A stretch of 64,000 nt of DNA from Symbiodinium sp. CCMP2592 (Eukaryota > Sar > Dinophyceae > Suessiales > Symbiodiniaceae), in the NCBI GenBank assembly GCA_905221615.1, contig CAJNDT010002001.1, positions 1,512,381 through 1,576,380 of the forward strand, written 5' to 3'. Below, piece after piece: positions 39,180 to 61,391 of the stretch. The notes beneath the pieces were generated by a model, which was given only the letters and a program-made list of their open reading frames with translations, searched no databases and was not told where the DNA came from. The position numbers and the translations under genes were made by a program. Numbering within the stretch: position 1 is the first letter of the stretch; each line of letters starts with the position of its first letter.

Positions 39180-39235
39180 CGTAGTAGCAGTAGTAGCAGT
39201 GGCGGTAGCAGCAGCACCAGCAGTAGTAGCAATAT
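38560..39235. repeat. Large compound trinucleotide/hexanucleotide microsatellite
   Basis: About 680 bp of agt, cgt, gga and gtagga units in blocks of different composition. It gives long Leu-, Val-, Tyr- or Ser-rich open frames in several frames and on both strands, the signature of a repeat, not a gene. A related ggtgctg-rich patch continues to about 39420. Confidence 0.95.
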
Positions 39236-40996: not shown

Positions 40997-41100
40997 ACTT
41001 ACCCAAAGGGTCCAAGTATCATCCTGGTATATACTTATAGGGCATTTTGGGTGTCTAAGTATATCCCATGATGATACTTGGACCCTTTGGGTTACTAAGT
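40997..41100. repeat. Hairpin element, family J
   Basis: Ends acttacccaaagggtccaag and the inverse gataattggaccctttggg-like end (atgatacttggaccctttgg); the inner tatatacttataggg/ctaagtatatccc also pair. Confidence 0.85.
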
Positions 41101-41438
41101 TCTCCGACTCTCCAAGTACAATGCATTTTGCACCTCAGGAGCGACTGCTTGGAGACAAGCCAGTCAGAATGGCGAGCCGTCGCGTCCTCACGCTCGTGGT
41201 TCAGGTTTAGGGTTTGGGGGTTTAGGGTTTAGGGGTTTAGGGTTTAGGGTTGTGGCTTCAGGTGGGGACTCTCCTCAAACCCTACACCATAAACAGATCA
41301 AGCCCTAAGCCCGAAACCGCATACAACCCTGAACCCCAAATTGCTGTCAATAGTACTGAGAGTAAGGGTGCCAAGGGTTCAAGGTTCAGGGCCTAGGGTT
41401 TGTATGTCCAGGATCCTATACTCCCGAAGCGCCCGAGC

Positions 41439-41535
41439 GTTGATGATATAGAGTCTGCATTACCTTAATGACCCTAGACTATGGGAATCCTGGTATATTC
41501 ATTACTATGGGTAATGCAGGACCTCTATCATCAAC
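41439..41535. repeat. Hairpin element, family B (copy 2)
   Basis: 97 bp, ends gttgatgatatagagtctgc and the inverse; inner taccttaatgaccctagact is identical to copy 1 at 24085-24183. Both copies are followed by cgtat. Confidence 0.88.
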
Positions 41536-42003
41536 CGTATGCACTTATATACTGTATCAGAAGGTAGGAATGACTATTATATTTATTGTGATTTGTCACT
41601 GACATGCGTATATGTGCTTCTGCCTTCTGGTTAGGAATCAGACCAACTTTGTCTCACTACGCAGCTTGACTGCTCAAGGACCGCCTAGCGAGTCCCAGGA
41701 AAAGACCGCTTACAGCCTGGGGGTTGTAGGACCTGTCTTCTACCTGAGCGTCAACCTTACGGTTTTTAACTCTGATCATCCTTGCTTTGCCTGCTGCATT
41801 GCTTTTTATCTACGATCGGCTGCCTTGGGCTTTGTGACCGAGAGTTGAGTGGAATCCTCCGCTTTTCACAGGTTATCAGCCGTAAGGCCTCCGCATCCGA
41901 TTGTGGATTGCTGCTTCGCTGCTGCTGCTCGGCACTCGGACCGCCTGATCCAATCAGTGTCTGATCACTACCGTTTTCCTGGCTCAGACCAAGTTCGGAA
42001 CTT
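41536..42003 (+). other. Presumed 5' leader of element 2; no LTR found
   Basis: No ORF precedes gag here. I compared it by eye with the sequence after 61391 and found no terminal repeat, and no clear TGGTATCAGAGC-type primer site. The 5' LTR may be diverged, deleted or outside the region compared. Confidence 0.4.
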
Positions 42004-45000: not shown

Positions 45001-45855
45001 GATCGGTTTACTCATGGATCCGAGCAGGAGAGGCTAGAAGCCTTCTCCAATCGGTGGGATCATGTTCTCGCTGGTATCTCAGTCGATCGTCCCGAGGATC
45101 CTGTTCTCTGCGCACTCTTCTATGAGCAGGTACGTGAGTTCCGCTGTCTCGAGCTCGATATGCAGTTGTGGGACAGGGACGTGTCTGTCCGGAACTACGC
45201 GTATTTGCGGACTGTCTGCGTCAATGCGATTACAACTTGGCGCCGGCGTCGCAACCAGGAGAAGATGTACACCGCTACTCGATCCACCTCTGCGCAAAGA
45301 CGGTATGCTGCACCTGCACATGGTAGCCCACGCAGATCCTTCTCAAGAAGCAAGAGGGGATCTAGATCTCCTGGACACCGAGACTCAAGAAGAGGGAGTC
45401 CCTACCGAAGGAGCTCGCCGAGGCGCTCGTCGCCCAGACGATCCTCCCCGAGGCGCGGTTCGCCGAGGCGATACTCGCCGCGCAGTCCGGGAAGGGCCGC
45501 TCCTGCTCCGACGCGCCCTGCATCACGATCTCCACGAGGGCGGGAAATCTGCTACGATTTCAAGAACGGCAGATGTACGCGAGGAAGCGGTTGTAAGTTC
45601 TCTCACAACCTCAAGGGCAGAAGCTCCTCGCCGAAAGGATTCCCGCCTCGATCCCAGTCACCGATATCAAAGGAGTCTGGCATATGCTTCTACTATGCCC
45701 GTGGATCTTGCACAAGAGGTGATAAGTGTCCGTATAAGCATGTGAAGCCTGGTGCTCCTGCTGAGAGCACTTCTGTTGTGGCTCCTGCGCCTGCTGAGCC
45801 CGTGCCGACATCAAGGCGGGTTGACAGCCCGGCGCCAACGCCCTCGGATTTTTGA
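42004..45855 (+). CDS. Gag-like protein of element 2 with CCCH zinc fingers
   Basis: 1283 codons; several ATGs near the start are possible, 42028 being an early one. Residues 1-240 are Ala/Pro/Ser-rich. About 260-440 is a long coiled coil (DIAEALEDKIREMWELL...). About 700-790 is Gly/Pro-rich. About 800-842 is Cys-rich (CERCAG, CISC, CCNGCC, CLVC). About 870-1085 is the helical core in the place of a Gag capsid. About 1110-1170 has SPRRSSPRR-type Arg/Ser repeats. Two CCCH fingers follow: CYDFKNGRCTRGSGCKFSH and CFYYARGSCTRGDKCPYKH, both C-X7-C-X5-C-X3-H. CCCH fingers normally bind RNA; here they stand where retroelements usually have CCHC knuckles. The ORF ends GAT TTT TGA, where a one-base backward slip enters the protease frame. 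Confidence 0.82.
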   Translation: MIGHATERMATPIGSPRVPSTVGSSLVTPVARDVVEPDDSAHASRCTAPASHASLARSASLLASPPAEDDQRAQHHAPLLPCSAAAFATPGTMHAGMLPASATARALPLLPAFSASAAPAASAPALLPTDSLSCPLSLRGDPEGARALFGSGPDGRGPPISDPASFRPPRPDSYGPVAGRGGASLPDEPMSEHPGAPHVSVATITAADHGGAAPATDNGGRLPGPCAVRALVDEAIGSEASARIATDILAIAQGVSNTQADLDILRNGVSDIAEALEDKIREMWELLQAEMRKERELHTIFQDSVRERRISDHETLEEHFARLNSMVNDRFIEFDERIHRFNEKRAGSISMQLAETIRHIKHYPDALQQIQINISNAEARIATVEQNATHRIEVIRTEMSRALYDHKESNRVLIDQLTARIQHLESSHVRRGGSDMSTPSRPERTQFFDISDHDGDIPRPADLPPVPGALFPGGPTTAIPRSSLLGPIDHGSPPGCNAAPAEKASTVHSQTSGINLDDILRRAQQRVADDHPPESRGQNNPVEPVRQNYGQASASFSGRSPIPTVPSTNAAGTTSGQAPSVRPFPVDDDLAIRSGVRYDPETQRFAPEPKRSPTFPCQISYDTRTVPAGKGPSRWYDAMLGRSNLIGSGSGAPVLQSETGTFTLAPSASVTGTLRPAATDDVDGWTMPPMPTFNARTSAPAPSAAPSGLGGPPPAHGGDGGSFGGGGPNDNGGAYGGGFGGHGHHGSGFRPGGGGGPPSGPPSGPPGGGGPPDGNGPPDGGLDPPSIRPSGRPSGNDTFQCERCAGTFPTTVRRSCISCRFSCCNGCCRDPLRICLVCLERQTGNPPGPNDTGFGGPKGDGSLSEAKKAKCKSFRLDPEPEPAQLRRWIVDMKERVANAFAYDPGYALSWVEIPDGTRYEDLLDECKYGMLENECNSAFRECVKSIALKNKIQTETERMHTINRRLGSRQILWLLYDFLRPHVTGDSTFKLVDLMKTTIDRFTHGSEQERLEAFSNRWDHVLAGISVDRPEDPVLCALFYEQVREFRCLELDMQLWDRDVSVRNYAYLRTVCVNAITTWRRRRNQEKMYTATRSTSAQRRYAAPAHGSPRRSFSRSKRGSRSPGHRDSRRGSPYRRSSPRRSSPRRSSPRRGSPRRYSPRSPGRAAPAPTRPASRSPRGREICYDFKNGRCTRGSGCKFSHNLKGRSSSPKGFPPRSQSPISKESGICFYYARGSCTRGDKCPYKHVKPGAPAESTSVVAPAPAEPVPTSRRVDSPAPTPSDF

Positions 45856-48770
45856 GAGGGGCGTGCCGCAACCCTCAGGCAATGACAGCATCCTCCTTTG
45901 GAGACTTTGCGTTCGCTTGTGCAGCATCATTCGATATGGCATGTCCGTCAGTCAAGCGGAAGACAGTGTCGTTTGGGAACACTGAGACCCGCGTGATAGA
46001 GTCTTCTTTCCCGGAGCCGGCCTTCGGCCCCGTCAATCGCGAGAGGAATTTGAGCTATTCGTGGCCGGAAAATATCCGTGGTTTGAATAGTGCTCGCGAG
46101 AGGCGAAGAGCCCATATGAAGGCTGTGCTGTGGCGAGAGCAGGTTTTGCTCGATGACATTGATGCCAAAACGTTAGGAAATGATGCTTGTGTTCTTGAGC
46201 TCACGCTTTCTCAGCGGAGCGCTTGCGAAGTCTTTGCTGCTGCTGTCAAGTCTATTAAGAGGGTACGGAGGCTCATGCTTGACTCCGGTTGCGGTATAGA
46301 CCTTATTGGTCTCGGTGATTTATCCCGTGAGGAAAGGGATTTGATCGTCCAGAATGCAAAGATCAGTCTTCGGACAGCCAACGGGAAGACCAACACCAAG
46401 GGTGTCGCGCATATGCGCATCGATGGTCTCGATGAACTGATTGAAGCTTATGTGTTGGAAAGCACGCCAAGTCTCCTTTCCCTTGGGAAACGATGTAAGG
46501 AGCTTGGTTATCGATTCATTTGGGAGCCCTTTTGCGATCCGATATTCTTTGATCCGAAAGGGAAACGCCTCAAGGTCGACGTGATCAATAATATTCCCTA
46601 CCTTGCTCCAAGTGAGACAGAGGTAGTGGCCGGCCGACCTGATCTCCCTCGCGTGTATCCGGCCCTCCCAGCACCGATTATCGTCCACGAGAAGGTCGTT
46701 GCAGCTGGTGAGGAGCCTGGCAGCGAATTAGACGCTGTCGGAGAACTTGATCTCGATATGCCTAACGCCAAGAGCGTTCAGAAGAGTGCACCTGACGATA
46801 ACAAGAAGGTGCCCGACAAGGGTAAGCCTCAGTCGCCGCCTGATGAACCTAGAGCGCGCGATCTGAGAGATGAGGCAAAGTCAATCCGTCATCTCATGAC
46901 CCATCTCCCAAAGAACCCCTATTGCGATGCCTGCCAACGTGCAAAGATGGAAAATGTTAAATCCTTTCGTCAAGACTCACCGCGCGATAAAGGGTTTGAG
47001 AAGTTTGGCGAACACGTTACCATCGATACAATGGTGTTGCATGGGCTCGGCAATCGCGGGAATAATGGGGAGACGGATGCTGTCGTCTTTTACGATCTAG
47101 CAACCGAGTGGCTGGAGAGCGTTCCCGTTAAGGGAAGAACGAATGCCGATACGCTCCGAGCATTTCAGCAGGTCTTTGGCGATCTTCGAGATGTGAACTC
47201 GTGCTCCATGGATGTGGAGAGGAGGTATGCACCTTCTGCGATTCGGGAAATCTACTGTGATAAAGCCCGTGAGTTCATATCGACCTGCAAGAAAGTCGGC
47301 ATCTCTGTGAAGCATTCCACGCCGGGAATGCCTCGAACTAATGCCATTGCCGAGAGCAAGGTGAAGCTTGTCCTTCATGGCGCACGTGTGGCGCTACGAC
47401 AAGCGGGATTGAGCGCCAAATTCTGGCCTTATGCATGCAAGCACTTCTGCCATGCTCGCAACATCGAGTTGCGTGAGGGTCAGAGTGCCTATGCGATGCG
47501 ATTTAATGGTGTTGAGTTTGACGGTCAGATTCTGCCGTTTGGTTGCCTTGTTGACTTCTATCCTACGCCGGCACGAAAACAGACCCGGCGGAGTCAGAGA
47601 GATGAAGTCGTCCTCGGCGATGGTGAGGAGTACGCCGTACCTGCGCCTGGGGCCGACGGACTGATTGATGTCGAAATTGGTTTCGATGACGATGGTTATT
47701 TAGAGTGGATTGATGACGGAGACAATGATCAATCTAGCACTCTTCAGGGCGCCGAAGTTGATCAACGCTTGTCGTCTTACCAACGCCCCAGTAAGTTCTC
47801 CCCTACGAGTAAGCCTGGTATTTTTCTGGGTTATCATTTTGAGAACGGGGGCAAGTGGGACGGTGACTACATTGTCGCCGATTTGGAAGATTTCAAACGC
47901 GATGCGTTGCGCGCGAGCGTCCACCAGGTCAAGAAGATATATTGCTCACCCAAGGAGCGATGGACGTTCCCGATGCTCGCTGTGTACGACAAGCAGACTC
48001 GATCAATGTGCATCAACGATCCTGCGATGCAGTCTTGTGCGGCTCAATCTAGTGAGCGCCTTGACGCCTCTGATATGCTCGAACTCGAAGATATCGATGA
48101 AATATTTGCCCTCGACGAGCCGACCCGAATGACCGAAGAAGATGTTCGGCGGGCTCGTGAGGCCGAGTTGCGAGCCGAATCTTCTCATGGAGGAGGTGTC
48201 GACTACTGGGAATATGATCCATCGAGTCATAAGTGGACTTATCACGTAGTCGTCCCGAGAAAGGCGATGATTCATCCCAGTAAGACTCCCGGATCTCTTG
48301 GCGAGTCGCCTGATCCGTGGAAGCTGAGCACAGTGCGTATTTCGCATGTTCAGTATAAGGATAAAAGTCCGGTTACGATCTATGAAACCGGCTATGCCTT
48401 CGGCAAAACGAGACTGATGCAACTCTGGACAGGCACTGTCGAATTCTATGATGATGGCTTTGCCCCATCCAAGAAGAAGTTACCTCCTTACCATGGGTCA
48501 GAGATCCTGGAGGGCGAGGGGGGTTTGCCTTACCGTCAGAGTGTGCCACGCTCCGAGCGTGTCTACAGAGGGTCTCGAAAACCGAACTCTATCGACTCCT
48601 CATCCTGGCGCAGCATGAATCGCGCCGAACGGGAGGGATATGTCGAGGCTGAGCGCCGAGAAGCTGAGTCTCACGCCATGTCCCGAGAGGATTCTCGCGA
48701 TGCCGCTCCTATCGACATCGCTTTCGATTCCGAATATGAGTCGGGTGCTGAACGGCATGATAAGGATTAA
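45825..48770 (+). CDS. Protease-integrase of element 2
   Basis: Frame 3 is open from 45825, overlaps gag by 31 bases and has no ATG at its beginning; the first in-frame ATG is at 45882. This favours expression by -1 frameshift from gag. The retropepsin motif RRLMLDSGCGIDLIG is at about 46266-46310. The integrase zinc module has H..H with CDAC (46890-46935). The DDE acids are in TIDTMVLHG (near 47020), YCDKAREF (near 47253) and AIAESKVKL (near 47345). A C-terminal region to 48770 probably includes the integrase tail. The next ORF continues in frame 2 after TAA at 48768-48770; the overlap is seven bases and no good slip sequence is visible, so this junction may be a mutation. Confidence 0.88.
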   Translation, partial: QPGANALGFLRGACRNPQAMTASSFGDFAFACAASFDMACPSVKRKTVSFGNTETRVIESSFPEPAFGPVNRERNLSYSWPENIRGLNSARERRRAHMKAVLWREQVLLDDIDAKTLGNDACVLELTLSQRSACEVFAAAVKSIKRVRRLMLDSGCGIDLIGLGDLSREERDLIVQNAKISLRTANGKTNTKGVAHMRIDGLDELIEAYVLESTPSLLSLGKRCKELGYRFIWEPFCDPIFFDPKGKRLKVDVINNIPYLAPSETEVVAGRPDLPRVYPALPAPIIVHEKVVAAGEEPGSELDAVGELDLDMPNAKSVQKSAPDDNKKVPDKGKPQSPPDEPRARDLRDEAKSIRHLMTHLPKNPYCDACQRAKMENVKSFRQDSPRDKGFEKFGEHVTIDTMVLHGLGNRGNNGETDAVVFYDLATEWLESVPVKGRTNADTLRAFQQVFGDLRDVNSCSMDVERRYAPSAIREIYCDKAREFISTCKKVGISVKHSTPGMPRTNAIAESKVKLVLHGARVALRQAGLSAKFWPYACKHFCHARNIELREGQSAYAMRFNGVEFDGQILPFGCLVDFYPTPARKQTRRSQRDEVVLGDGEEYAVPAPGADGLIDVEIGFDDDGYLEWIDDGDNDQSSTLQGAEVDQRLSSYQRPSKFSPTSKPGIFLGYHFENGGKWDGDYIVADLEDFKRDALRASVHQVKKIYCSPKERWTFPMLAVYDKQTRSMCINDPAMQSCAAQSSERLDASDMLELEDIDEIFALDEPTRMTEEDVRRAREAELRAESSHGGGVDYWEYDPSSHKWTYHVVVPRKAMIHPSKTPGSLGESPDPWKLSTVRISHVQYKDKSPVTIYETGYAFGKTRLMQLWTGTVEFYDDGFAPSKKKLPPYHGSEILEGEGGLPYRQSVPRSERVYRGSRKPNSIDSSSWRSMNRAEREGYVEAERREAESHAMSREDSRDAAPIDIAFDSEYESGAERHDKD

Positions 48771-49924
48771 ATCACGATGTCGCAGCTGGCACGGTCACCC
48801 GATTTCATGTGATCGAGCGCCGAGCGCGCTTTAATCCCACCTCAGTGAAGGACTGTCCTGTCGATCCTGTGACCTTGACAGATGTCAGGATGACTATGGC
48901 CATGACCGATGGCACGGAATTTACGTTGCAGGATTCATGGAGATCATCCGATGTGCGATCTCTGCCATGTCGATGGACAGGAAAGACAGTTTTCGTTATC
49001 GGTTCTTCTGCCAAAACACAGATCAAGGTTCGAACCAGTCTGCCGAATAACGACGGAACAGAGCGCCGAGTGCAAACAGCGAACGGCTATTATGGCCACG
49101 CCTTACGTGCGAAGGGACGTGTTGTAGTCCCTGCTAAATCTCGCGCCTGTGTTGTTACTGACCTTGAATTCGATCCCCCAAGCGGCATGTCGGCCCGCCT
49201 TCAGCCGCTTCGCGGTAGTGGCCTCGATATTTGTCCGGCCATGTATACGTACAACGAAGGGGCTACCCAATCCGGGGTCGACGTCCTTAATCCTACCGAC
49301 ACCGATCTTATTGTCGAACCAGGACAGGATGTGGCAGTGGTTCAGTTTTATACTTCCGTGCTAGCCGCAGTTGACCTTGATTTCACAGATGAGGATACCG
49401 GGGATGGTACTTCTGCACCGGTAGAGCCCTCCAACGACTGTCTGGATACCGATGCAGCACCTGCGATGTCTATTCGTTCCGATCCTCATTCGCATCGCTC
49501 TCCAGACTCTTCGGTGTTCTTTTACAGCGCGTGTGTCGCACGGCCTGTTGATCGAAAAGAACGTGCCGCTAATCCCAAGGCCAAGGCCGCCCTTGATAAG
49601 GAGTGGAACAAACTTATCAATCAGGGCTGCTGGGATTACGCCTCCGTGCGTGAATGGCGCGATGTATCTAACGAGGCCATGGCGAAAGGAGAGACGGCCC
49701 ATGTTGGTCGTATCTTCGATATATGCGTGGAAAAGAACTCCGAGCTTCCAGAATCCGATCCAAATCGAAAATTTAAGGGTCGTGTCGTGTTTGAGGGCTG
49801 TCATGTCAAAGATGAAGGCAACAATTGGGCGATTTTCTCCGAGATAACTTCATGCCCCGCGACCATGGAGGCAGGGAAGGCCGCTGATGCTTTCGGTCTC
49901 TTGCCCGGTCACGACCTGGAGCGC
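48764..49924 (+). pseudogene. Reverse transcriptase, 5' half (interrupted)
   Basis: Frame 2 is open from 48764; no ATG at the start, so it depends on upstream translation. The N-terminal part includes a dUTPase-like looking beta-rich stretch (GSGLDICPAMYTYNEG, PTDTDLIVEPGQDVAVVQF) that I cannot assign firmly. From about 49590 the Copia RT begins: ALDKEWNKLINQGCWD, KGRVVFEGCHVKDE, ITSCPATMEAGKAADAFGL. The domain is cut within the motif that would lead to the first catalytic aspartate, by the insert 49925-50114. The frame runs on into the insert to a stop at 49969. Confidence 0.8.
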
Positions 49925-50114
49925 CCTTTGATACACAAATTTCCGCTCGAAACGCACGCGGGCGCATAACACCGCATACGGGCGCATAATGCCGCATATG
50001 GGCACAACACAACCCGCAAAACGAGCGCATAAACCCGCCAATCGAGCGCATATTCCCGCAAACGAGCGCAAACTGATCTGGCACAAATTCGAGCGGAAAT
50101 AAGTGTATCAAAGG
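49925..50114. mobile_element. 190-bp MITE-like insert in RT of element 2
   Basis: 27-bp terminal inverted repeats with two mismatches (start CCTTTGATACACAAATTTCC at 49925; inverse end at 50088-50114). The inside is made of about 20-bp direct repeats with gcgcata and cgagcgcataaacccgcc phrases. A target duplication was not resolved. The insertion splits the RT domain and shifts its frame. Confidence 0.85.
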
Positions 50115-50127
50115 AGGGTCTAGGGAA

Positions 50128-52380
50128 ATACAAGTTGCTGACGGCGAGTCCGCCTACACTCAAGCTAAGCTTGGTGGCCCCGCCACATGGGTGCGACTGC
50201 CCAAAGATCGATGGCTGCCCGAATGGCATGGGAAGTATCATGACCCGGTTGTGCGTCTTGTATTGGCCCTTTACGGGCACCCGGATGCCGGTGGGTTCTG
50301 GGAACAGCATTGCGAAAAGGCTCTCCGCTCTGTTGGCTTCGAGCAATGCCCTGACTGGAAGAGCGTGTTTCGCCATCCCAAGCTTAACCTTATGCTTGTG
50401 GTCTACGTCGATGATTTTAAGCTCAGTGGACCAAAGGCCAATCTGGCCACAGGGTGGGAGCTCATGGCATCAAAGATTAAGTTGGAGCCGCCCTCGAGCA
50501 TCAAACGTTATTTGGGTTGTGAGCATGTTACTTTCTCTCATGTTGTTCCTAATTCTTTTGATCCGCGCTCCTATTGGACGCGTTTCGAGGAACCCAAGAA
50601 GGCATTTCCCGAGCTCACTTTTGGCGATCGTGACACTACTGTCGCTCATGGCTCTGTCGGTCCTCGCGAAATCCGAATGATCAAGTACGATATGCGATCT
50701 TTCATGGAGCAATGTGTCTCTCGCTATGTCGAGCTCTGTGGTCCGAAATACAAAGCCACCTTGCGGTCGGCTGACACGCCGTTTCTCGATGAGTCACGAC
50801 CGGAGTTCGATACTAATCCGGATCGTCCCGAGGTGAACCGTTTGTTGGGCCATCCCACCGATACGCCTATACCTCCTGGTAAGGGCGTTCTCGGTGACTG
50901 CGCTGCCGCTGTCCTGATGAAAATCTTGTATGGTGCTCGCATGGGGCGATACGATCTCATCCGTCCTGTGCAGGCACTTGCTAGTCTCATCACCAAGTGG
51001 GATGGTTTGTGTGACAAGAAGCTCCATCGTTTGGTGTGTTATATCAACTCCACCCTCGATCTCAATTTATATGGTTGGATTGGTGATGCGCCCGAGATGT
51101 TAGAGCTTGTGCTCTATTGCGATGCTGATCTTGCGGGCGACCGCACTGATTCCAAGAGCACGTCTGGTGTCTTCGTGTGTCTTCTTGGCCCGCGTAGCTT
51201 TATGCCTCTTAATGCGCTGTCCAAGAAGCAGACTTCTGTGTCAAAGTCTACTCCCGAAGCCGAAATTGTCTCCCTTGATCACGCCGTCTATAAACTGGGA
51301 TTGCCCGCTCTCTCCATGTGGGAGTATATGTTGGGTCGTCGCTTCCGTTTGCGTGTCATGGAAGACAATGAAGCTGCCATCCGAGTCATTATCACTGGTC
51401 ACAATCCTAATATGCGTCATATGTCCCGTACCCAGCGTATCGATATTTCTGCGTTGAATGAACGCTACCACGCTGGTGACTTTCTATTTGTGACGTGTCC
51501 CTCTCAGTTTGAGGCTGGTGATATCCTGACCAAGGCCTGCACTGATGCCAAAGTGTGGGGTCGCAACCTTATGTCTATTGGTCATTTTCGCAAAGGTACT
51601 CTTATTTCCTCTGGTATGCTGTCTGCCGCTCCCGCTCTCTCTGCTCTCCCCTCTGTCTGTCCAACCAGGGGGGTACATCTTGAAACTGGTCACAGTCCCT
51701 TCAACGATTTCATCCTCGAAATGTCTCGTCAGGGGGGTATTTCAATTGATGATGCTCACCAATTCGGAGCAGCCATAAAATGTATTCATATCGGAGGCGA
51801 AGGCATAAACCGATTCCCTCATGCTCGAAGTATCAACCTCAGTCTCGATGATAATGCAAAGGGGATTGCTAGTTCGAACATCAGGGTTCCGCCTACGCCT
51901 GCGGTATGTATTGTTACTGTTCCGATTGCTGGCACCGCTAACAAAAGAGAAGCCGATTTCAAGAGCAGGGGTTGGAAAGAAATGAGGGGCGACCTCAAAG
52001 AAAAAGGATGGGAAGCCAAGAAATTACTCGGGTACGCTTCCGCTGCCCGGTCATCTGGAATCCCTGTATTCCTTGTGCTACCGAAGGGAAACCCATTGTG
52101 GGGTAGGGAGTACATAAGACGATGGTCTGAATCGCACGAGCTTTGCCCAGTTAAGCTGTGTTCGTGCTCCTCTGGTCGATGTTCTCAGCATGCGTGGATG
52201 TGCGAGATTTTCATGCCCGCCCGGTTTGGGCCCATCTTCATGTCACGATTTGCATGCAATCACAAGAAGGCCAAAAGGGTCGACCCGAAAGAGCTTCGAT
52301 TTGCATTGTGGGCTGTGCTAGAACATTTCATCAATTCTGCGGTTTTTGGCTCACAACAATCCGCGTTGCCGATTGCTTAA
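50128..52380 (+). pseudogene. Reverse transcriptase 3' half, RNase H and C-terminal extension of element 2
   Basis: Frame 1; RT similarity resumes at about 50128 (VADGESAYTQAKLGG), the first ATG being at 50191. RT: WVRLPKDRW, VVRLVLALYGHPDAGGFWE, catalytic YVDD at about 50404. RNase H: YCDADLAGDRTDSKSTSG, SKSTPEAEIVSL, EDNEAAI, QFEAGDILTKA. After about 51620 there is a 250-residue extension with CSCSSGRCSQHAWMC and a hydrophobic FLVLPKGNPLWG stretch. The latter is loosely reminiscent of the ENP-type stretch of the methyltransferase-like domain of element 1, which would be in a different place; not a firm call. Called pseudogene because the first RT half is separated by the MITE. Confidence 0.82.
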
Positions 52381-52460: not shown

Positions 52461-53327
52461 ATGGATCACCTTCATCAACCGACCATCACAGACCACCTCT
52501 ACTACGACTCAGTCCATAGCCCACTTGCGCTCCCTGCTAGGACAGGTTGTAGCTGCCACGGGCTGCGAATTTCTCCGCGCTGCCGCCGCTGCTGGACGAT
52601 GGGGGGAAAGAACAAGCAGCCACCGAAGAAGGCTGCCGCCAAGACACCGGCTGCCCGATCACCTCAGCCGAAATCTCCCTCGCCATGCGGGGAAGGCCTT
52701 CCGAGCGGCCCGATTGCGCCAACTACGGAAAGGCCTCCTGCTCCGCCGATCCCTACGGAGCAGGACGCCAACATGGGCGCCGATGAAGCCCCAGTCCCGA
52801 TTCAGACCCCGAGAGATGAGTCTACTGGGGGTGGGAAGCGCTCCGAGGACGTTCCGATAGGATTGAGGATGAAAGCAATGATGCTGAAGATCGGGGTCCA
52901 AGAGATCCCACAGGCCTCAATCTGGCAGCGCCTCGAACAGCTGGCATGCAACTCTGGTTTCGACCTAAAGCTGCATCAGCTAGTTGACTCCTTCCTCCTC
53001 TCTAATCATCCGCTTGCGGATAAGCAGAGGAAGCAGTATCCCCGAGAGTTTATGGACTTCGTCGATCGATACAGGGTGATGTGCGCTGTTGCATTTTCCC
53101 GAGTGGCAACGTTGTCCGGTGACGCCGCAGGGGTCCGCGAGAAAATGGACCTTACGATGGCATTGGCTCGCCACTGTATGCACTTCCAAGCGCAAACCTT
53201 TAAGGGGTCTCGAGAGACACTGAGCAACGATACGCTCCGTCTCATGGGAACCTGTTACATTCCGTCGCCTCTTGCGAGTTGGAATCGAAATCTCATGGGA
53301 TACAGCAGTTCGTCTGCGGAACAGTGA
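52461..53327 (+). CDS. Accessory ORF of element 2, N-terminal part (to UGA)
   Basis: 288 codons from an ATG. Pro/Ala/Lys-rich first 130 residues with QPPKKAAAKTPAARS, then a helical domain (residues about 130-280, VPIGLRMKAMMLKIGVQEI...). Not recognised. It ends at a single UGA (53325-53327) and the same frame continues open for 2686 codons. A readthrough polyprotein or one nonsense mutation are the two simple readings. Confidence 0.7.
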   Translation: MDHLHQPTITDHLYYDSVHSPLALPARTGCSCHGLRISPRCRRCWTMGGKNKQPPKKAAAKTPAARSPQPKSPSPCGEGLPSGPIAPTTERPPAPPIPTEQDANMGADEAPVPIQTPRDESTGGGKRSEDVPIGLRMKAMMLKIGVQEIPQASIWQRLEQLACNSGFDLKLHQLVDSFLLSNHPLADKQRKQYPREFMDFVDRYRVMCAVAFSRVATLSGDAAGVREKMDLTMALARHCMHFQAQTFKGSRETLSNDTLRLMGTCYIPSPLASWNRNLMGYSSSSAEQ

Positions 53328-53330
53328 TGG

Positions 53331-56300
53331 TTGAGGACCGATACGAGTATCAAGCACAACGACCTCACCAAGCTGTCGCCCATTGAGTTGTCAAGGGATG
53401 TGGTCAACCCGGCTGAAGCCGCGAGGTTCTTCAAGGGATTTCTGCAGCTCAGGCCGACACTTTCTTTCATCCCTGGGGCGTTTCTGGCAATCAAGGCCCT
53501 TAACCGATTTCCCACGCTGAATTCTCTGAAAGAGCAAGCGAGTCACCTCGAGAATGATCGCAAGGAACACGGCTACGATCTACCTGCCGTGGATGCGAAC
53601 GGGATTGGTGAAGTGGCCGCCTTTCGCAACGAAGACGACGATGAGAATAACCCGCTGATGCGCGGGTGGGCCTCGTTCATGAACACGATGGCTGAGGCCT
53701 ACCCCGGGCGATGCGTCAGCATCGATGATACGCTCAATTGGGGAGCCAGCACCCAAATGACCTACGAGGACGGTGCGTCACAGATCACCATCCGCCCGAC
53801 TGACGGGTGGGTGTATGTCCCAGCGATGAATTCGGACATATACGATCCTCAGGAGACGTACCTCCACGGAACGAATCTCCGATACCTCTGGTCGATTCTT
53901 GCTCACGGAGGCTTGTTCGGAGAGGATTACGTGACGGATGATCATGGAAGTCACGAACCCTGCGTCTGGGTGACTGGACACGCCCCCGAGGCTGCCGGTA
54001 GCTATGCATCTGGCACGTACCTCGGCGGAGGCTACTGGTTCCAGGTGATGATCTGCGTCTCCCGAACTATGGTGAACAGCCACAGTCGCACGACAAAGAA
54101 GCTGGGGGGATCCCAGAAACAGATCCGCGTAGGAACTCGATTTCTCGAGCTGTGCGGAATCGCGTTCAGGCCCTTCCGCCTCTTGGATGACCGCGAGCAA
54201 GGGGTTTCTACTTCCCCAAACTACGTCATCCACGGACACCGATTCCTCAGTGCCGATGGGACGAAAGCCGTGGCCTGGCACCCGTGGATGGAGGCGAGCC
54301 CGATCGATCCTCGCATTCTGAAGCTGCTGGGAGACAGTGTCGCGCGCGACAATGTTGAGTTTGCCGACCTAACGATTCAGGGGGGCAACACTACCCAACA
54401 GGCTGCATCTACCGAGACGGAGCAGCCTGTGGCGACCGCGGCCGATGATCATGCTGCGGCGAGTGGTGGTGAGGCAACGGAGCGAATCACCGTCAACCCG
54501 GTAGTGCTTCGACGCAATCACTGGATGCCCGACTCGTACGGGACGAGTGAGCAAGCCACTGTCGGTGGAAGGTATGCATTGCTATCCGAGCTCCAGTCCT
54601 CTAGCTACCGAATCGAGCTGGCTCCTTTCTTTCAGTCGCGTGCACCCATGCTGGGTGAGGAAGGCAGCCAAGGCTTGCCCAAGCCTACAAAGCTCGAGAC
54701 AATAGCCGGAGGACCCTCCAAAGAGTGGGAGGCATGGTGCAGGCACTACCGAAAAGCATACGGTGCTCTGCTCGGCAACTTCGGCAAGAATATCAAGGGT
54801 ATCGTATACGATGAAGAAAATACGACGGATATCATTGGCGCGCTTATTTGGAGCCCAGCCGATGCCCTTGTGGCTGTCTCGATTCACGGGATCCGAACGG
54901 TCACGACCATGGCATCCACGATTGCATTTGGAGGTGCTCCGCCAACGATCAAGCCGGCAGTACCCAGCAAGCCGCAGAGATTCGTTGTCATGCACGATGG
55001 CCTGCTAACCTTCAGATCTGCCAAATCCTGGCACGCTGGTGAGATGAACACCCATCTGAAGAACGCGCTGGCAAGCTTTGGATTCCCTGAGTCCGAAGTT
55101 CGGGTACAGGCGTTTGATGAGGGCGAAAAGCTCAAGGAGATGGTAGACACTCTCGAGCTGATGCAGAGTGACCCATCTGTCCCGCCATCGAACGTTCACA
55201 TCCTCATCCTCTGGAAAGGAGACGAGTTGTGGAAGATGGACCAAGGCTGGAATAAGCTGACTGGTGACATCGATATGGCACGATCACAATACGCCAAAGT
55301 GACCGCCCGGGACGCCCTTGAGAAGTATAACACGATCTACGGATCGGTGTCCCTTTGCGGACCAGTGTCACCGAGCATGGGTTTCCTTCCGACTCTTCCT
55401 GGCCCTCTCTTCGAGAAATACAGAGAGGAGATGAGGTCGATCTGGGACGAAATCAGGAGGTCCAACTTCCTTTCCCTGTCGTTTGACGCTATCCTGGAAG
55501 GACTACCGTACCTGAAAGGATATCACATCATGCATGAGTCCAAAACGATCGGGGTCCTATGTACCCGTATCTGCTCGATGTTTACACTGGCGGCTCTCGC
55601 ACGATTTCCGTCTTACGCTACACGACGGGAGTATCAGATTGCCCACGATAAGCTGTGGGCGCGCACTCCAGTTCCGGAAGAAAGGTCGACTGGCACGGTG
55701 AAGGCCATTGTGCACTCCACAGTGCAGGACCTTATCGAAGGGGCAGATCGCGGCGCTGATCATCGAGCCGCAAAGACCGTTGACATGAGTCAGCTTGGCT
55801 TCGATGACGAAGATGAAGAGGAGATGGCTGACGATGCAGGTCCGGCTGCTCCTGAGAATCCGATTAAACAGGAACAGACGTCTTTGGCTGATCTGCCGGG
55901 TATTCGTCATCCGGATCCGATTGAGCTGCCCGCTACTCCCGTGCATGGCCAGGCAATGCCGGTATCGCCCGGCCTTGCTCCGGCTGCTGCGAACGATGAA
56001 GAGTCTAGCGATAGCTCCGATGGCGACGGACAGCAAGGGGATGGCGATGCAGCGATGCCTGCGGTCAAGAAAGAGGAATCCGATGAGGAGTTTAATGAGC
56101 TTCTCGAAGGAATGACTGAAGCATTCGAGAACTTGCCTACTCCCCGGGATGCAGAGCGAACAGTCGCCGCCAATCGGGATGCTGCACGACCACCCGCCGT
56201 GCCGGCGATCCCGCTATCTGCGATGAAGAAGCCGAAGCCGTTCAGTGGTGTGGAAGCCGCGGGACCTACTGCCGAGGGTCGCCAAGGCTATGCGCACTTC

Positions 56301-59300
56301 GAGAGCCAAGTCAGTGAAGCTGAGGCTCGACGTGAACAGGCTGCTAAAATGAAGGCGCATATCGCGGAAGTGGCGAAGGGCGCCACGGGAGTTGAGAATG
56401 CCGAACACCTTCGATCCATTGCCGATGGGCTAGCCAGGGTCATGGACCCGAACATAAACGATGACAATGTGTTCCAGGGTGCCATGTATCCTCCGGGTGA
56501 CTATGCGCTTGACGCTGTCACGAACCGGCTGGCCCAGGGCCGACGCCGAGTTGAGTCGAACAGCAATCTCATCAGGGAGATGGCCAGCGACCGATTTACG
56601 CCTGTGCTCATCAACCGAGATACTGGTGAGACTGTGTCCGCCATTGATGCACGGTGGACCCCGGAGTATGGAAACAGGGGGGAGCTTGAGGCCAAGGTTG
56701 GTGCGATTATCTCCAACCTGGATGCAGTTGTCGCAAGCATGTCGACCCTTCCTGTGTTCCATCCGCACATTCCCTCAACATATGGTATGGCCCGATCGCT
56801 TCTCAACACATACCAGTCATTGCAGATTGCCATCCGACACCGCGGCATGGGTGCGATGTCCTTTGAACAGATGGTGTTCAAGCCAGAGGACCTTGAGGTT
56901 CCGACTCCCGATGACTGGCCGGACCTTATTGCGCCTACCCCTGGAAAAGTCATTCAATCCATGCGGGTGGCCCTGGTGAACAACACGGCGGCAAGGTTGA
57001 CGAGAGAGGACCTCAAGCTGCCACCGGGCTTCGCCATGCAACGACGAGTGACTGAGTTCCGTAAGCCGGAGGAAGATCCAGTGCAGAGCCTGATGGGGCT
57101 CACCGATGACTTGAGCTACGGCACTACTGGTCGATCTGGGGATGACAGATTGTCCCAGTTCCAGCGTAGTATGGCAGTACAGCTGCGGAACACTGCTGGA
57201 TTCCTTGCGAGTGAGTTCCAGAAGCATGCCCGATCTATTGCCGCTTCTTCCTCGCGTCGCAGTGATGCTTCAGGTGCCCTGAGTAGCCAGGGTGATGGCG
57301 CGGCGGACAACGATCTTCCGTCCACTGAACAGGTTAGTGTTGCATCTGAGCGCGCGATTGCGCCGCCTCCGCCAAACGTGGCTCCTCCTCCTCCGCCTAC
57401 TGCGGCAGCACCTCCGAGGGCGTCCGAAGAGAGTGCAAAGGAGGATGACGATGATACCAAAATGGATGATGACACGGCCGGTCAGAAACCCGAGCAGAAA
57501 CCCGAGGAGGACGCAGATATGGGTAGCGGGAAGGAGCTGCAAGACGAGGTCCCCGGCAAGGCCCCGCCGCCAGCTGCCCGAACCGCTGAGAGCCCTCCGG
57601 AACACGGCCTGCGTTCCAGTCCTCCGAATGACATGGTTGCTCAGGGAGCCGCGCTCTCCGGTGCTCGAGGGCCGGATATCGACATTGACCCGGCCAGCAC
57701 CACAGCCGATCAAGCGGCAAATGATCCGAGAAATTTCCGGATCGAGGGCCCTGGTATCAAGGCGACAACGATTCATCGCCCTGACCAGATGCCCGAGAGG
57801 GGTGTCGACTCTATTGCACCGATTGTGCAGTATGAAATGACGTCCGTCCCGATTGCGCTGACTGACTTCGTCGTCCCGGGACTCGACATGGGCATCGATG
57901 ATTCCGTCCATGGTCGGCTGGTCTCCGCGACCTGTCTCCCACCGACTGACGAACAGCGCAAATATTCGAGGCGCCGATTCGCTATGCTGTCCTCGAATCA
58001 GACGGTGTACTTGAACGTCGCACTTCACAAGAAACCGGTGAAAGGAGATCACGATTCTTTCCTCCGACCGGAGTCTTACGAGGATTGCCGCGAGATCCAT
58101 GACGCTGTCCGAGCATACAATGCTAAGGAGGCAAAGTTCCGATCCGTCGGCGGAACATCCGTGTCATGCAGCCGATTGTTGATCGATGACGCACAAAACA
58201 TCCCTGCTGCCAGGATTCCGGACGCCGGAATGATCAACTTGGTGCGGAAACTGCTGTTCCGAGTGCTGACGCAAACGAAGGAGTATCCTTCCGCTACTGC
58301 CGAGAGAACGCAGAATCGCCCCCAGGATCAAGAAAGGGGCATTCCCTTGTATTCGCGCTTCGACCAGAGTGGCATTATCGCTTTCGATGTCATTCCGATG
58401 TACATGGAGCGTGAGAGGGAATACATGAAGGCCAACGCCGGAGAGAACGATGGCCGAATCCTTCTCCAGACAAATATTCTGGATGAGCGAGGCGAACCGA
58501 CCGAGATCACTACCCGATGCATTATGGAGATCGCTCGGACGGACAACAACCGAATGTTTGAGTTCTTCTACTCGACGATCGACAACGATGGAAGTCCTCA
58601 ATTTGTCGGCATTCGAGCCACCTACGGTTTCGGCCCTGATAACTTCAACCGATTCCGACTGCTGACCAAGTGCCAGCACGGGCCATTTATCCAGCTCGCT
58701 CAGGATCATTACGTCGCTGGCGAGAGGAAAAGAAATGTGGCCCGATACCATCCTCAGTATGGATGGGGATGCGCAACGATTCGCGAATTCTTCGGGTACA
58801 TGAGCGATTGCAAGCTCAATCCTCCGAAAGGACGGCTGTTCCTCACTCTGCTCCCGTATGCTCCCGGATCTGGGAACAACAATGAGTGGGAAGAGGTGTA
58901 CATGAACGTCCGAATGAACCCGGGGCGTGAGACGCTTTCGAACACCGCGTCATCACAATCCATGCTCCCTGAAGGGATGGGATCCAACCGCATGATCGTG
59001 TTTGCGATTGATTTGCACATGATTGCGGCGGGAATCAATCCGATTGCATTCCACCCGAGGGGATATTATGCGATCAAAGACAGTATCCCTCTCGCCTGTA
59101 TGCCCATTGCATACTTCATGGACACGGGATCCCTCGTGTTCAACACGGCCTTCAAATATGTTGGAGGCCCAAAGTTCGGCACTGGCCCCAAGAGAGGAGA
59201 CCACAAACGAGAAACGTGGCCGCTTGCTAGTTTCGACTGCCCCATGTGCGGAGCATCATTCCCGGTGGGTCTCCACATGTGTCACTCTTGCACCAAGCCG

Positions 59301-61391
59301 ATTCATTATCCTGATGGGATGTTCTACGCCGATCCTGTAAACCCATTTCAGGTCGAGTACTATGGAAGTCATGCCGAATGGCTCAACGAGCTTACTGAGC
59401 GAAACGAGCTTAAAGAATTCCGACTTCGCGAGTACCCTGCAATCAAGCAGCTGAGGAATTTCCCGGTATCTAGGTCAATCGCTGAGGACCACAGGCAAAC
59501 CGCGTTCTTCGGGGTGCCACCGATCAAATGCACTGCAGCTGATACATCGCCGAAAGAAGTGGAATTGTTCAAGAAGAGCGTGCGCGGAACGATTCAAGGC
59601 GCCATTCGATTGGACATCTCCATTGAGAGGCTTGTTGCCGGTATCACTGGCAAGGAAGCTCGGAGCGGTGTGGAAGACTTCCTCAACTCGCAGTCGATCG
59701 CCTGTGCAACCACGATAGTCAAGCACTTCGGCGCGGTCTTCGCCACATGCCGCGAGAAGCCGCTGTGCTACTATGCACGATGGTCGATCCACTGTCAGCG
59801 CGCATACCGAGTCTGCCTGTCGCGTGGCTATCTCTCCCCCTTTTACACAGGAGGAACAATCGATTATACCGTCGACTCAGACATGATCGAGAAAATTCGG
59901 CTTGCGCATCTGCCATTGCAGAACGCCAATCTGGCGATGAGAAGGCAAATTCGACTTTCCACCGAGTTTGGAACGTTGGATGAGTTCCGTGCCACTATCA
60001 CGGACACGCAAAAGTATCAGCGATACATGCGTGTCGATAGTGAAAGCCTTTCCGCGCTCCTTGCCAAGGTTACCCTTACAACGTGCTACGTCATTCCGAT
60101 GAAAGGTGAACCTGGCTACATCTCTGACGATGAAGCTGAGGAGATCGAAGGAACTGCGGCGGCAATTGAAAAGCCCAAAGGGAAAGGAAAAGGGGAAGAA
60201 GAAGAACCCGATGTCCAAGCCATCAATTGGCGTGATTTGGACCCTTTGGGGCGGAAGTTCATCCCGCACCATACCGATTCCCGATTCACGATTTTTGCTG
60301 ATGGGAATACGGCACTCCTTGATGCCCCCGAAACGCCTGACGAGAAGCGTAAGGAATTCAAGGAGTTCATTCGCGATCACTCTGTCAAGATTAAGGAATG
60401 TTTCGATGATGATCGCGCGACTGAGAAGACGTTCTTCAATCTTGTTGAAGGCGTAAAGGATCAGCTCCCCGATACTAAGAGAACTGACCCTGTTCTTATG
60501 AAAAAGAACGAAGATGTTTTCGAGGCTCTACCCGATGAACTAGAAGAGCCTCAAGATCTGTTCGACGTCGCAGCTCAGCTGGCACGACGGCGTGCTGATG
60601 CGCCTCAGCGCAGAGTGCAGGTCACTGAGCAACGGCACGCGTCGATCCCCGAAGCTCATGCCGTCCCCGTTCCTCCGGATGACGAGGACGAGGATGATAC
60701 TGAGCTCGAACGGGCGATCCGACCCGGCCCGAAGTCACAGCGCACTGGGCGAGAGCACCTCGGAGGTGTCGCTCCTGAGACGAACCCGCCTCCGCCTCGC
60801 GAGATGCCGCCTCCGTCTAATCCACCGAGTCGGAAGACGTCGAGGCAATCGGGCTACAATGTTCCCCACGCCGAAGGGGAGACACTGATGGTCTCAGGAA
60901 GGGCACCCTACTCCGATCAAAAGGGTCTACCCTTGGTACTGCGAATGAAGACCCGGGTTCCGGAGCCTGATTTGGACAACCCGACGATTGAAGATATCAT
61001 TCGCATGTATCACGCACCGAACACGCTGCCTGTTGTCAGGAAGAAAGTCGCCAATGTCATCATTTCGATGAATGCAAATCCCGATGACCCTATCAATATG
61101 AAGGCGGCTGGCGTAGTTCCTCCCTCTGCCGAGGAAACAGGAGCGGGAAGAGCTGCCTCGCCTGGAGGCACTTCCGCTACTACGCAGGAACGGATTAACC
61201 CTAAGTTCCCTGCACCAAATACTCGCACCGCTTCGAACCCACCTTCGAAATCAGCCCGCGACGAGAAATGGGCTCCTTCGATTGTGCGGCCAACTCCTGG
61301 TCGGGTGATTACTTGGGGAGCCCCTGCATTTGGTTGGATTTATAAGCACTTAGCTGGACTTAGACAGCTAAGTGGGGCTAAGTCAGACTAA
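53331..61391 (+). CDS. Giant accessory protein of element 2 with Tpt1/ADP-ribosyltransferase-like segments
   Basis: 2686 codons, in frame with the preceding ORF; the first codon listed is UUG and no early ATG marks a start. Visible: residues about 170-290 with ETYLHGTNLRYLWSILAHGG and CVWVTGHAPEAAGSYA, like the H-x-T half of Tpt1/PARP folds and similar to CYIMHATDLQALSSILRHGL of element 1; about 540-720 an alpha/beta segment (RFVVMHDGLL, HILILWKGDELW), unassigned; acidic and Pro-rich linkers (about 820-980, 1340-1450); about 1660-1780 a winged-helix-like part (SRFDQSGIIAFDV, IMEIARTDNNRMFEFF, GIRATYG); about 1885-1920 MIVFAIDLHMIAAGI and YYAIKDSIPL, like the last Tpt1 strands; CPMC/CHSC zinc pair near 1970-1985. 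Tpt1's Q-G-H-S is absent. Activity is uncertain. Confidence 0.6.
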   Translation: MRTDTSIKHNDLTKLSPIELSRDVVNPAEAARFFKGFLQLRPTLSFIPGAFLAIKALNRFPTLNSLKEQASHLENDRKEHGYDLPAVDANGIGEVAAFRNEDDDENNPLMRGWASFMNTMAEAYPGRCVSIDDTLNWGASTQMTYEDGASQITIRPTDGWVYVPAMNSDIYDPQETYLHGTNLRYLWSILAHGGLFGEDYVTDDHGSHEPCVWVTGHAPEAAGSYASGTYLGGGYWFQVMICVSRTMVNSHSRTTKKLGGSQKQIRVGTRFLELCGIAFRPFRLLDDREQGVSTSPNYVIHGHRFLSADGTKAVAWHPWMEASPIDPRILKLLGDSVARDNVEFADLTIQGGNTTQQAASTETEQPVATAADDHAAASGGEATERITVNPVVLRRNHWMPDSYGTSEQATVGGRYALLSELQSSSYRIELAPFFQSRAPMLGEEGSQGLPKPTKLETIAGGPSKEWEAWCRHYRKAYGALLGNFGKNIKGIVYDEENTTDIIGALIWSPADALVAVSIHGIRTVTTMASTIAFGGAPPTIKPAVPSKPQRFVVMHDGLLTFRSAKSWHAGEMNTHLKNALASFGFPESEVRVQAFDEGEKLKEMVDTLELMQSDPSVPPSNVHILILWKGDELWKMDQGWNKLTGDIDMARSQYAKVTARDALEKYNTIYGSVSLCGPVSPSMGFLPTLPGPLFEKYREEMRSIWDEIRRSNFLSLSFDAILEGLPYLKGYHIMHESKTIGVLCTRICSMFTLAALARFPSYATRREYQIAHDKLWARTPVPEERSTGTVKAIVHSTVQDLIEGADRGADHRAAKTVDMSQLGFDDEDEEEMADDAGPAAPENPIKQEQTSLADLPGIRHPDPIELPATPVHGQAMPVSPGLAPAAANDEESSDSSDGDGQQGDGDAAMPAVKKEESDEEFNELLEGMTEAFENLPTPRDAERTVAANRDAARPPAVPAIPLSAMKKPKPFSGVEAAGPTAEGRQGYAHFESQVSEAEARREQAAKMKAHIAEVAKGATGVENAEHLRSIADGLARVMDPNINDDNVFQGAMYPPGDYALDAVTNRLAQGRRRVESNSNLIREMASDRFTPVLINRDTGETVSAIDARWTPEYGNRGELEAKVGAIISNLDAVVASMSTLPVFHPHIPSTYGMARSLLNTYQSLQIAIRHRGMGAMSFEQMVFKPEDLEVPTPDDWPDLIAPTPGKVIQSMRVALVNNTAARLTREDLKLPPGFAMQRRVTEFRKPEEDPVQSLMGLTDDLSYGTTGRSGDDRLSQFQRSMAVQLRNTAGFLASEFQKHARSIAASSSRRSDASGALSSQGDGAADNDLPSTEQVSVASERAIAPPPPNVAPPPPPTAAAPPRASEESAKEDDDDTKMDDDTAGQKPEQKPEEDADMGSGKELQDEVPGKAPPPAARTAESPPEHGLRSSPPNDMVAQGAALSGARGPDIDIDPASTTADQAANDPRNFRIEGPGIKATTIHRPDQMPERGVDSIAPIVQYEMTSVPIALTDFVVPGLDMGIDDSVHGRLVSATCLPPTDEQRKYSRRRFAMLSSNQTVYLNVALHKKPVKGDHDSFLRPESYEDCREIHDAVRAYNAKEAKFRSVGGTSVSCSRLLIDDAQNIPAARIPDAGMINLVRKLLFRVLTQTKEYPSATAERTQNRPQDQERGIPLYSRFDQSGIIAFDVIPMYMEREREYMKANAGENDGRILLQTNILDERGEPTEITTRCIMEIARTDNNRMFEFFYSTIDNDGSPQFVGIRATYGFGPDNFNRFRLLTKCQHGPFIQLAQDHYVAGERKRNVARYHPQYGWGCATIREFFGYMSDCKLNPPKGRLFLTLLPYAPGSGNNNEWEEVYMNVRMNPGRETLSNTASSQSMLPEGMGSNRMIVFAIDLHMIAAGINPIAFHPRGYYAIKDSIPLACMPIAYFMDTGSLVFNTAFKYVGGPKFGTGPKRGDHKRETWPLASFDCPMCGASFPVGLHMCHSCTKPIHYPDGMFYADPVNPFQVEYYGSHAEWLNELTERNELKEFRLREYPAIKQLRNFPVSRSIAEDHRQTAFFGVPPIKCTAADTSPKEVELFKKSVRGTIQGAIRLDISIERLVAGITGKEARSGVEDFLNSQSIACATTIVKHFGAVFATCREKPLCYYARWSIHCQRAYRVCLSRGYLSPFYTGGTIDYTVDSDMIEKIRLAHLPLQNANLAMRRQIRLSTEFGTLDEFRATITDTQKYQRYMRVDSESLSALLAKVTLTTCYVIPMKGEPGYISDDEAEEIEGTAAAIEKPKGKGKGEEEEPDVQAINWRDLDPLGRKFIPHHTDSRFTIFADGNTALLDAPETPDEKRKEFKEFIRDHSVKIKECFDDDRATEKTFFNLVEGVKDQLPDTKRTDPVLMKKNEDVFEALPDELEEPQDLFDVAAQLARRRADAPQRRVQVTEQRHASIPEAHAVPVPPDDEDEDDTELERAIRPGPKSQRTGREHLGGVAPETNPPPPREMPPPSNPPSRKTSRQSGYNVPHAEGETLMVSGRAPYSDQKGLPLVLRMKTRVPEPDLDNPTIEDIIRMYHAPNTLPVVRKKVANVIISMNANPDDPINMKAAGVVPPSAEETGAGRAASPGGTSATTQERINPKFPAPNTRTASNPPSKSARDEKWAPSIVRPTPGRVITWGAPAFGWIYKHLAGLRQLSGAKSD
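61347..61374 (+). terminator. Perfect 10-bp hairpin at the end of the giant ORF
   Basis: CACTTAGCTG, 8-base loop, CAGCTAAGTG, inside the last codons of the ORF. It is followed by more ctaagt phrases (61376-61403) and then ttttttt. Could be an RNA 3' end signal, a recombination site or the end of a DNA transposon; only the symmetry is seen. Confidence 0.5.

Follow-up and report, generated by a model that had tools for sequence, protein, structure and literature searches.

The 64,000-nucleotide stretch of Symbiodinium sp. CCMP2592 DNA analysed here (the window; contig CAJNDT010002001.1, positions 1,512,381 to 1,576,380 of the forward strand) holds two Copia-type long terminal repeat (LTR) retrotransposons, E1 and E2, and raises the question of whether, and why, such elements carry sequence related to Tpt1, an enzyme of the ADP-ribosyltransferase (ART) superfamily, in the open reading frame (ORF) that follows pol. 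Tpt1 uses NAD+ to take an internal 2'-phosphate off RNA (PMC6333775), and TRPT1/KptA is described as also ADP-ribosylating 5'-phosphate RNA ends via the same residues, an activity lost when their tetrad is changed (PMC6582358). An initial annotation of the window had proposed that one and the same Tpt1/ART-like cargo recurs in both elements. This interpretation is partly supported: the case for E2 is weaker, and that for E1 and for a genome-wide pattern stronger. We regard as evenly balanced the overall proposal that two unrelated Copia elements carry Tpt1-related modules after pol as part of a wider retrotransposon habit, and that Tpt1 acts on element RNA.

Tpt1-like sequence in the two Copia elements

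The Tpt1/ART-like parts lie in ORF 13309-14892 of E1 and in ORF 53328-61391 of E2 (all features given by window coordinates are on the forward strand). Both are the next long ORFs past that of the reverse transcriptase (RT), and the modules were thus rightly placed directly after pol. The elements are also as divergent as had been claimed: BLASTP found no clear match between their RTs (25 amino acids, E 0.052).

The E1 module, which appears to be a divergent, whole-length Tpt1-related domain, occupies positions 13411-14679. When compared by hhalign with a Tpt1 reference profile of ten sequences (five matches from this genome and five solved Tpt1 chains), it aligned collinearly over its whole length with a probability of 79.6% and E 1.5e-5 across 172 columns, a score that none of 200 shuffles reached. 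The window sequence of E1 alone scored 36.4 against Tpt1, and 32 control tiles from the gag, pol and other ORFs of E1 and E2 scored 18.4 at most. Windows of the related proteins P0022 and P0023 scored 39-42 with the HAT block, 10-26 with other parts of the module and no more than 15.3 without the module.

The catalytic tetrad of Tpt1 is Arg-His-Arg-Arg, numbered 18/19/68/121 in CthTpt1 and 40/41/86/150 in the human enzyme (PMC6333775, PMC6582358). By the numbering of these papers the third residue is the Arg of K-x-R-F, not the Arg of IRA..GHS. In E1, T-R-H (TRH motif, 13645-13683), K-S-R-F (13798-13821) and N-R-D (NRDTVQF motif, 14257-14289) align with all four residues, and none of the 17 rows has lost any of them (the window copy is counted twice, and P0021, which is without part of the module, is excluded). 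Further motifs are LSA.GGH (13912-13944), HAT (14128-14193) and GMFATP (14392-14427). The tetrad is complete in all five PDB chains and in four of the five Tpt1 rows from this genome; the fifth, L002, begins past the first two residues and has the other two. Because of the profile alignment and the tetrad in every row, the E1 module is, on sequence grounds, a divergent relative of Tpt1 that bears the tetrad.

E2 contains two candidate stretches. ART1 (53784-54377), whose core starts at 53859, where the initial annotation had begun, carries the motifs TIRPTDGW..., LHGTNL..LWSILAHGGL and CVWVTG...AAGSYASG...FQVMICV; c2 (58230-59093) lies far downstream. When 48 windows of the 2687-amino-acid E2 ORF were compared with the Tpt1 profile, only two places stood out, residues 150-195 and about 1726-1830. 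ART1 scored 30.3 at best (E about 0.001, 46 columns; none of 200 shuffles as high), and before its core comes TIRPTDG, spaced much as IRAxQG is in Tpt1. It fits the PARP-like module of a LINE-type ORF described below (LINE-B) about equally, with E 0.002 as against 0.0016 for Tpt1. For c2 the scores were 26-29 (E 0.002-0.005, 96 columns), matched by none of 200 and none of 300 shuffles, the best of the 200 being 25.0 against 26.45. The E2 stretches are thus probably ART-like, though not proven to be. Distant copies of ART1 are decayed pieces.

The strings on which the original claim was built are all present: YLHGTNLRYLWSILAHGGL at 53859-53915, FVGIRATYGFG at 58602-58634 and MIVFAIDLHMIAAGI... 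from 58992 in the E2 ORF, and YIMHATDLQALSSILRHGLVPS at 14128-14193 in the E1 ORF. GIRATYG (58602-58634) and VFAIDLHMIAAGI (from 58992) had been taken for separate parts. We reject this separateness: both lie in one stretch, c2, in what is by eye the order of Tpt1, and are therefore read as a single second Tpt1-like unit, of which hhalign aligns the first half only. The C-terminal VFAIDLHMIAAGINPIAFHPRGYYAIKDSIPL of c2 resembles the C-terminal block of Tpt1 by eye alone; hhalign left it unaligned, and relaxed gap settings gave no extension.

The direct match between the two elements fared less well. The block H(A/G)T.L..L.SIL.HG is indeed shared, as the alignment by eye had suggested, but it spans only 18 columns and is weak by itself. 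In profile-profile comparison of the two regions the relation was not nil (E 0.0096, or 0.019 with the first, smaller alignments), but it came close to none at all, one of 200 column shuffles being as high. BLASTP scored the block at 22.3 bits (E 0.22); the best match, an unrelated one, scored higher at 24.3 bits. This is too little, and the two parts therefore cannot be called the same module; a single module common to E1 and E2 is rejected. Of the claim of the same cargo in both elements, what stands is that Tpt1/ART-like sequence probably occurs in each, but their sameness is weak and the E2 part weaker than claimed.

Tpt1 in LINE-like elements and selection on the modules

In the source genome, of 1.1 Gb, the Pfam Tpt1 model (PF01885) gave at least 152 matches (150 of 1550 candidates scored), the best at E 8.6e-50, and all were over the curated cut-off among the matches listed. 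Long interspersed nuclear element (LINE)-like ORFs of three families, A, B and C, matched with E 4.7e-51, 6.7e-45, 1.4e-39 and 1.7e-39; the 4.7e-51 ORF is that of locus L015, and the linkage to RT comes from other loci, one per family. Four LINE-like ORFs passed the 26-bit cut-off with 136-174 bits, from domain positions 2-5 to 176-177 of 177, and thus appear to encode the complete domain. The tetrad is complete in L001, L003, L013 and L016, and L002 is without the start of the domain.

In all three families, each read with its RT at one locus, the Tpt1 ORF lies upstream of endonuclease and RT. RVT_1 was found at E 1.3e-16 in family A (L017), 2.5e-22 in family B (L013/L014) and 1.7e-7 in family C (L016), and Exo_endo_phos, in the same order of families, at 5.2e-4 and 8.8e-4, both under its cut-off, and at 1.2e-5. 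The Tpt1 ORF is 1237 amino acids long in the LINE-A copy at L017 and 757 amino acids long in the LINE-C copy at L016. Scores similar to that of the LINE-A copy are found in 14 genome matches, and Tpt1 was read in 8 of these. The LINE-B ORF (665 amino acids) has a PARP-like domain in front of Tpt1 (E 1.4e-39); its residues 227-276 match PF00644 at E 2.6e-4, under the cut-off, and against PDB the ORF matched a tRNA 2'-phosphotransferase (7yw3, E 3.4e-20). The PARP-like part has at least 150 matches in the genome at 92-100% identity (150 of 293 candidates scored). Between the families the RTs are 23-30% identical and the Tpt1 domains 33-39%; in a tree of ten rows most branchings stayed open, so that it favours neither single nor repeated capture. 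Scans of viral contigs gave no relatives.

Some features of these loci stand apart. The PARP-Tpt1 units of LINE-B recur on the same strand about 10.1-10.6 kb from each other on C890 (about 10.1 kb), C5312, C459 and C980, a tandem-like spacing that is uncommon among LINEs. Of 150 matches to the PARP-like module, 4 are within open frames of 2119-2334 amino acids (one has a stop within the match), as though ORF1 had been joined to the RT ORF. The LINE-B RT ORF (L013:6966-9998, minus strand) has a match to ubiquitin carboxyl-terminal hydrolase (UCH) behind the RT at E 1.9e-8, over cut-off. L002 (C4512:155721-156191), a Tpt1 match of 1.5e-45 in a short frame of 242 amino acids, could be an exon of the Tpt1 gene of the host itself.

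The initial annotation had suggested selection for the cargo, and the ratios of amino-acid-changing to silent substitution rates (dN/dS) bear this out. For ART1 dN/dS is 0.034-0.100 in the ten copies that have 10 or more silent changes (among 18 rows, the window itself included), and in each of these ten informative copies it is below that of the preceding part of the protein. The c2 stretch gives 0.089-0.129 in three of three copies. In E1 the ART part is at 0.04-0.13 in the 5 of 12 copies that have at least 4 silent changes, and the preceding part there is at 0.29-0.45. The Tpt1 domain of LINE-A gives 0.034-0.125 (12 comparisons, in which seven loci were set against two references and one pair entered twice). 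By the informative copies, the modules are under purifying selection and, because dN/dS is low, are probably needed by active lineages.

Build of the two elements

E1 (4622-20538) is bounded by direct repeats of 249 nucleotides, 97.6% identical, at 4622-4870 and 20290-20538. Its pol ORF (7191-12842) matches RVT_2 of Pfam at E 3.3e-17 and rve at 0.025, under cut-off; the LTRs and the RVT_2-type RT are those of a Copia (Ty1) element. Past the module, the remainder of the downstream protein (14658-19988) is in a single frame with it in other copies; the window copy has a frameshift before 14892, which other copies read through. The frame is exactly 2318 amino acids long in 16 of 82 scored copies and 2132-2399 in 8 more. 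Relatives of the downstream protein include P0020-P0023, at 53-59% in ENA genomes, and P0026 of Symbiodinium microadriaticum, at 65% over part of the length. The remainder also shows a B-box zinc finger under cut-off (E 1.9e-4) and, by eye only, the endonuclease/exonuclease/phosphatase-like motifs NWGNMD and GDLNN. Many short telomere-like CCCTAAA/TTTAGGG arrays lie at 3600-4150, before E1, and at 22000-41500, between E1 and E2.

E2 begins with a 5' LTR of 285 nucleotides (41587-41871), the similarity of copies starting at about 41587. The LTR recurs after the downstream ORF on C705 (L059:950-1234, 86%) and C1624 (L060:1214-1497, 90%), and the C705 copy extends for about 20.1 kb from its start to the LTR end. 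There follow a gag-like ORF with CCCH zinc fingers (42004-45855; Torus E 2.3e-10, zf-CCCH E 3.4e-6), an integrase ORF (45825-48770; SH3_retrovirus E 0.026 and rve E 0.058, both under cut-off), which precedes the RT in the Copia order, and the RT/RNase H region (48764-52380; RVT_2 E 5.3e-8, over cut-off), which is interrupted at about 49919-50129. With RVT_2 over cut-off, a weakly matching integrase before the RT, and LTRs evident from the copies, E2 too is of Copia type. The RT frame is broken by the roughly 210 bases at 49919-50129, a small insertion or intron-like piece; P0005, a protein predicted from this genome by a gene model that is possibly spliced, is without them.

The downstream protein of E2 runs from MGGKNKQ at 52599 to 61312, where an insertion cuts it, with an in-frame stop at 53325-53327, past which the 2687-amino-acid ORF of the window (53328-61391) begins. 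The frame is open over 2964-3031 amino acids in other copies (8 of 82 matched rows). All 19 protein matches, at up to 99%, are from Symbiodinium sp. CCMP2592. Of the 32 copies compared, 31 lose the match at 61306-61313 and one at 61101, and other repeats begin there. An LTR that matches that of E2 at 100% over 284 nucleotides lies outside the window at C2001:1610186-1610469, about 36.5 kb past the break, and is probably the 3' LTR of this copy; because of it, the remainder of E2 has probably been displaced beyond the window by nested insertions, and the identity of the LTRs suggests that the insertion of E2 is young. On C4855, too, two similar LTRs stand far apart, at about 40 kb. Within the protein, 54981-55541 (FVVMHDGLL ... 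YHIMHES) resembles, by eye only, the layout of an SGNH hydrolase and has no Pfam match. A pair of Cys-rich knuckles read by eye, CPMCG...CHSC, follows c2 at 59238-59291; its E of 0.15 for a double zinc ribbon passes no cut-off.

Possible roles and relation to known systems

We propose that an element-encoded Tpt1 would work on the RNA of its own element. If element RNA were cut so as to leave a 2',3'-cyclic phosphate and a host ligase then joined the pieces again, an internal 2'-phosphate would be retained and might hinder reverse transcription; Tpt1 would strip it using NAD+ and so clear the scars of repair. Alternatively, the same active site could put ADP-ribose on 5'-phosphate ends of RNA, possibly protecting them. 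E1 may act likewise, and the E2 stretches, which accommodate no complete tetrad, would act by binding RNA or by a related chemistry; for E2, RNA-end chemistry is no more likely than a PARP-like role or binding alone. What the sequences themselves show is the placement of the modules, the relation of E1 to Tpt1 with its tetrad, complete Tpt1 domains in LINE-like elements and purifying selection. More tentatively, with somewhat less than an even chance, at least five retrotransposon lineages (two Copia and three LINE-like) of one dinoflagellate would have taken up and kept Tpt1/ADP-ribosyltransferase modules, so that the elements of this group would themselves encode, as a standard part of reverse transcription, the NAD+-dependent repair or capping of RNA ends, with one family combining PARP-like and Tpt1 domains in a single ORF1 protein.

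Several findings weigh against a Tpt1 that acts on element RNA. The hindrance of reverse transcription by a 2'-phosphate is an assumption. The E1 module stays under the 26-bit cut-off of PF01885 in the window (17.2 bits, E 0.0057) and in P0022 (15.1 bits), and the model matches neither P0023 nor the truncated P0020; E1 is also altered at other conserved sites, with HAT for HGT, T-V-Q for H-V-H and no IRA Arg. Because of the Pfam score and these changes, the use of NAD+ by E1 is not assured. For E2, each stretch reaches only E 0.001-0.005, uncorrected for about ten independent windows, and PF01885 is silent on both at E up to 5-10, as is NCBIfam. None of the four tetrad places is aligned in ART1, and in c2 the third is Met, the fourth Arg and the first two unaligned. 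Among 20 rows of the E2 family the Tpt1 hidden Markov model matched 19, 15 of them best at the HGT block and none above 6.3 bits. An NCBIfam scan of E1 and E2 gave no match, and a sequence search of solved structures gave nothing for the E1 module or ART1 and five chance-level matches for c2. As for selection, 7 of the 12 E1 copies, the window among them, have too few silent changes for a ratio of the module, and the module of L042 has three amino-acid changes and none that is silent. Over E1 residues 36-459 dN/dS rises to 0.90 in L033 and 0.54-0.56 in L039, L040 and L042, the excess lying outside the ART part, and ART1 of the E2 copy L028 gives 0.30 on one silent change.

It is somewhat unlikely, in our judgement, that the likeness of E2 to Tpt1 is chance and that a differently folded protein happens to contain the short motifs HGT...IL..G and IRA..G. 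The uncorrected single-comparison E values, the silence of PF01885, the low scores across the family and the shuffle that equalled the direct E1-E2 match all favour chance, but two separate places stand out of the 48 windows, each above its 200 shuffles, the control tiles of both elements stay at or below 18.4, and the dN/dS of ART1 is lower than that of the preceding part in every informative copy. Nor is it likely that the Copia modules are inactive pseudo-enzymes, now serving a large structural protein as parts that bind RNA or build particles. The very large proteins that contain the modules (frames of about 2300 and 3000 amino acids) with zinc-finger-like motifs, the lack of a placeable tetrad in E2 and the loss from E1 of HGT, the H-V-H pair and the IRA Arg would fit such a reuse; on the other hand, E1 keeps the whole tetrad in all its rows, and the HGT block is invariant in 8 of 8 rows, with R for H in one further protein, P0007.

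Another use of the modules would be as ART effectors against host proteins or defences, the PARP-like domains ADP-ribosylating a host factor during retrotransposition. This agrees with the PARP-like domain that fronts the Tpt1 of LINE-B, under its cut-off as it is, with the about equal fit of ART1 to that domain, and with an account of viral ARTs in which those other than KptA are mostly fast-evolving and a role in conflict is suggested (PMC9503650). We consider it unlikely: the modules are slow, with dN/dS of about 0.03-0.13 in informative copies, unlike a protein in an arms race, and the RNA-phosphate tetrad is retained in E1 and in the Tpt1 domains of the LINEs. Action on element RNA remains our preferred reading. 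Since Copia elements carry Tpt1-like parts and other elements carry apparently complete Tpt1, RNA-end chemistry may matter to the copying of such elements.

Compared with Tpt1/KptA/TRPT1 (PF01885), the LINE ORFs appear to have the same full domain, over cut-off and with the tetrad, and E1 is collinear with it and has the tetrad; what differs is that here the domain is encoded by retrotransposons, in high copy and inside long ORFs, that E1 falls short of the Pfam cut-off, with HAT replacing HGT, and that E2 is only weakly related. With the PARP catalytic domain (PF00644) LINE-B shares a match, which is under the curated cut-off, and ART1 shares the block GW...HGT.L..L..IL..G with the PARP-like domain of LINE-B but has no Pfam match itself. 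Tpt1 is reported to be essential to fungal tRNA splicing, the knock-outs in E. coli and mouse are described as having no known phenotype, and its role is called not obvious in taxa without the fungal-type ligase (PMC6333775). A complete Tpt1 in a multicopy retrotransposon points to element RNA as a natural substrate, and the question of its role thereby becomes testable. KptA domains are described in a few RNA-virus polyproteins and some eukaryotic DNA viruses, and are called absent or rare in eukaryotic viruses (PMC9503650); there too a foreign, self-copying genome bears a KptA of its own, but the main text of that paper is without the words retrotransposon and dinoflagellate. In the open-licence literature, among the papers listed and by titles and the openings of abstracts, we found no report of Tpt1 in retrotransposons.

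Plant LTR elements have env-like ORFs after pol. LTR elements of bdelloid rotifers are described as having an extra ORF after pol (PMC5408684). Like E1 and E2, both groups carry accessory ORFs beyond gag and pol; the differences here are the Tpt1/ART-like cargo, the frames of up to about 3000 amino acids and one E2 copy of about 20.1 kb. A parallel in setting is already published: LINE and DIRS retrotransposons of Symbiodinium that carry DNMT (PMC5890265), in which, as described there, an enzyme domain was likewise captured in or beside an RT-bearing ORF and is present in many copies. In those elements the enzyme is a DNA methyltransferase and not an RNA-end enzyme, and the carriers are LINE and DIRS elements and not Copia. 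The Tpt1-related modules would add a new kind to the cargoes of retrotransposons: an enzyme of RNA ends in place of a DNA methyltransferase.

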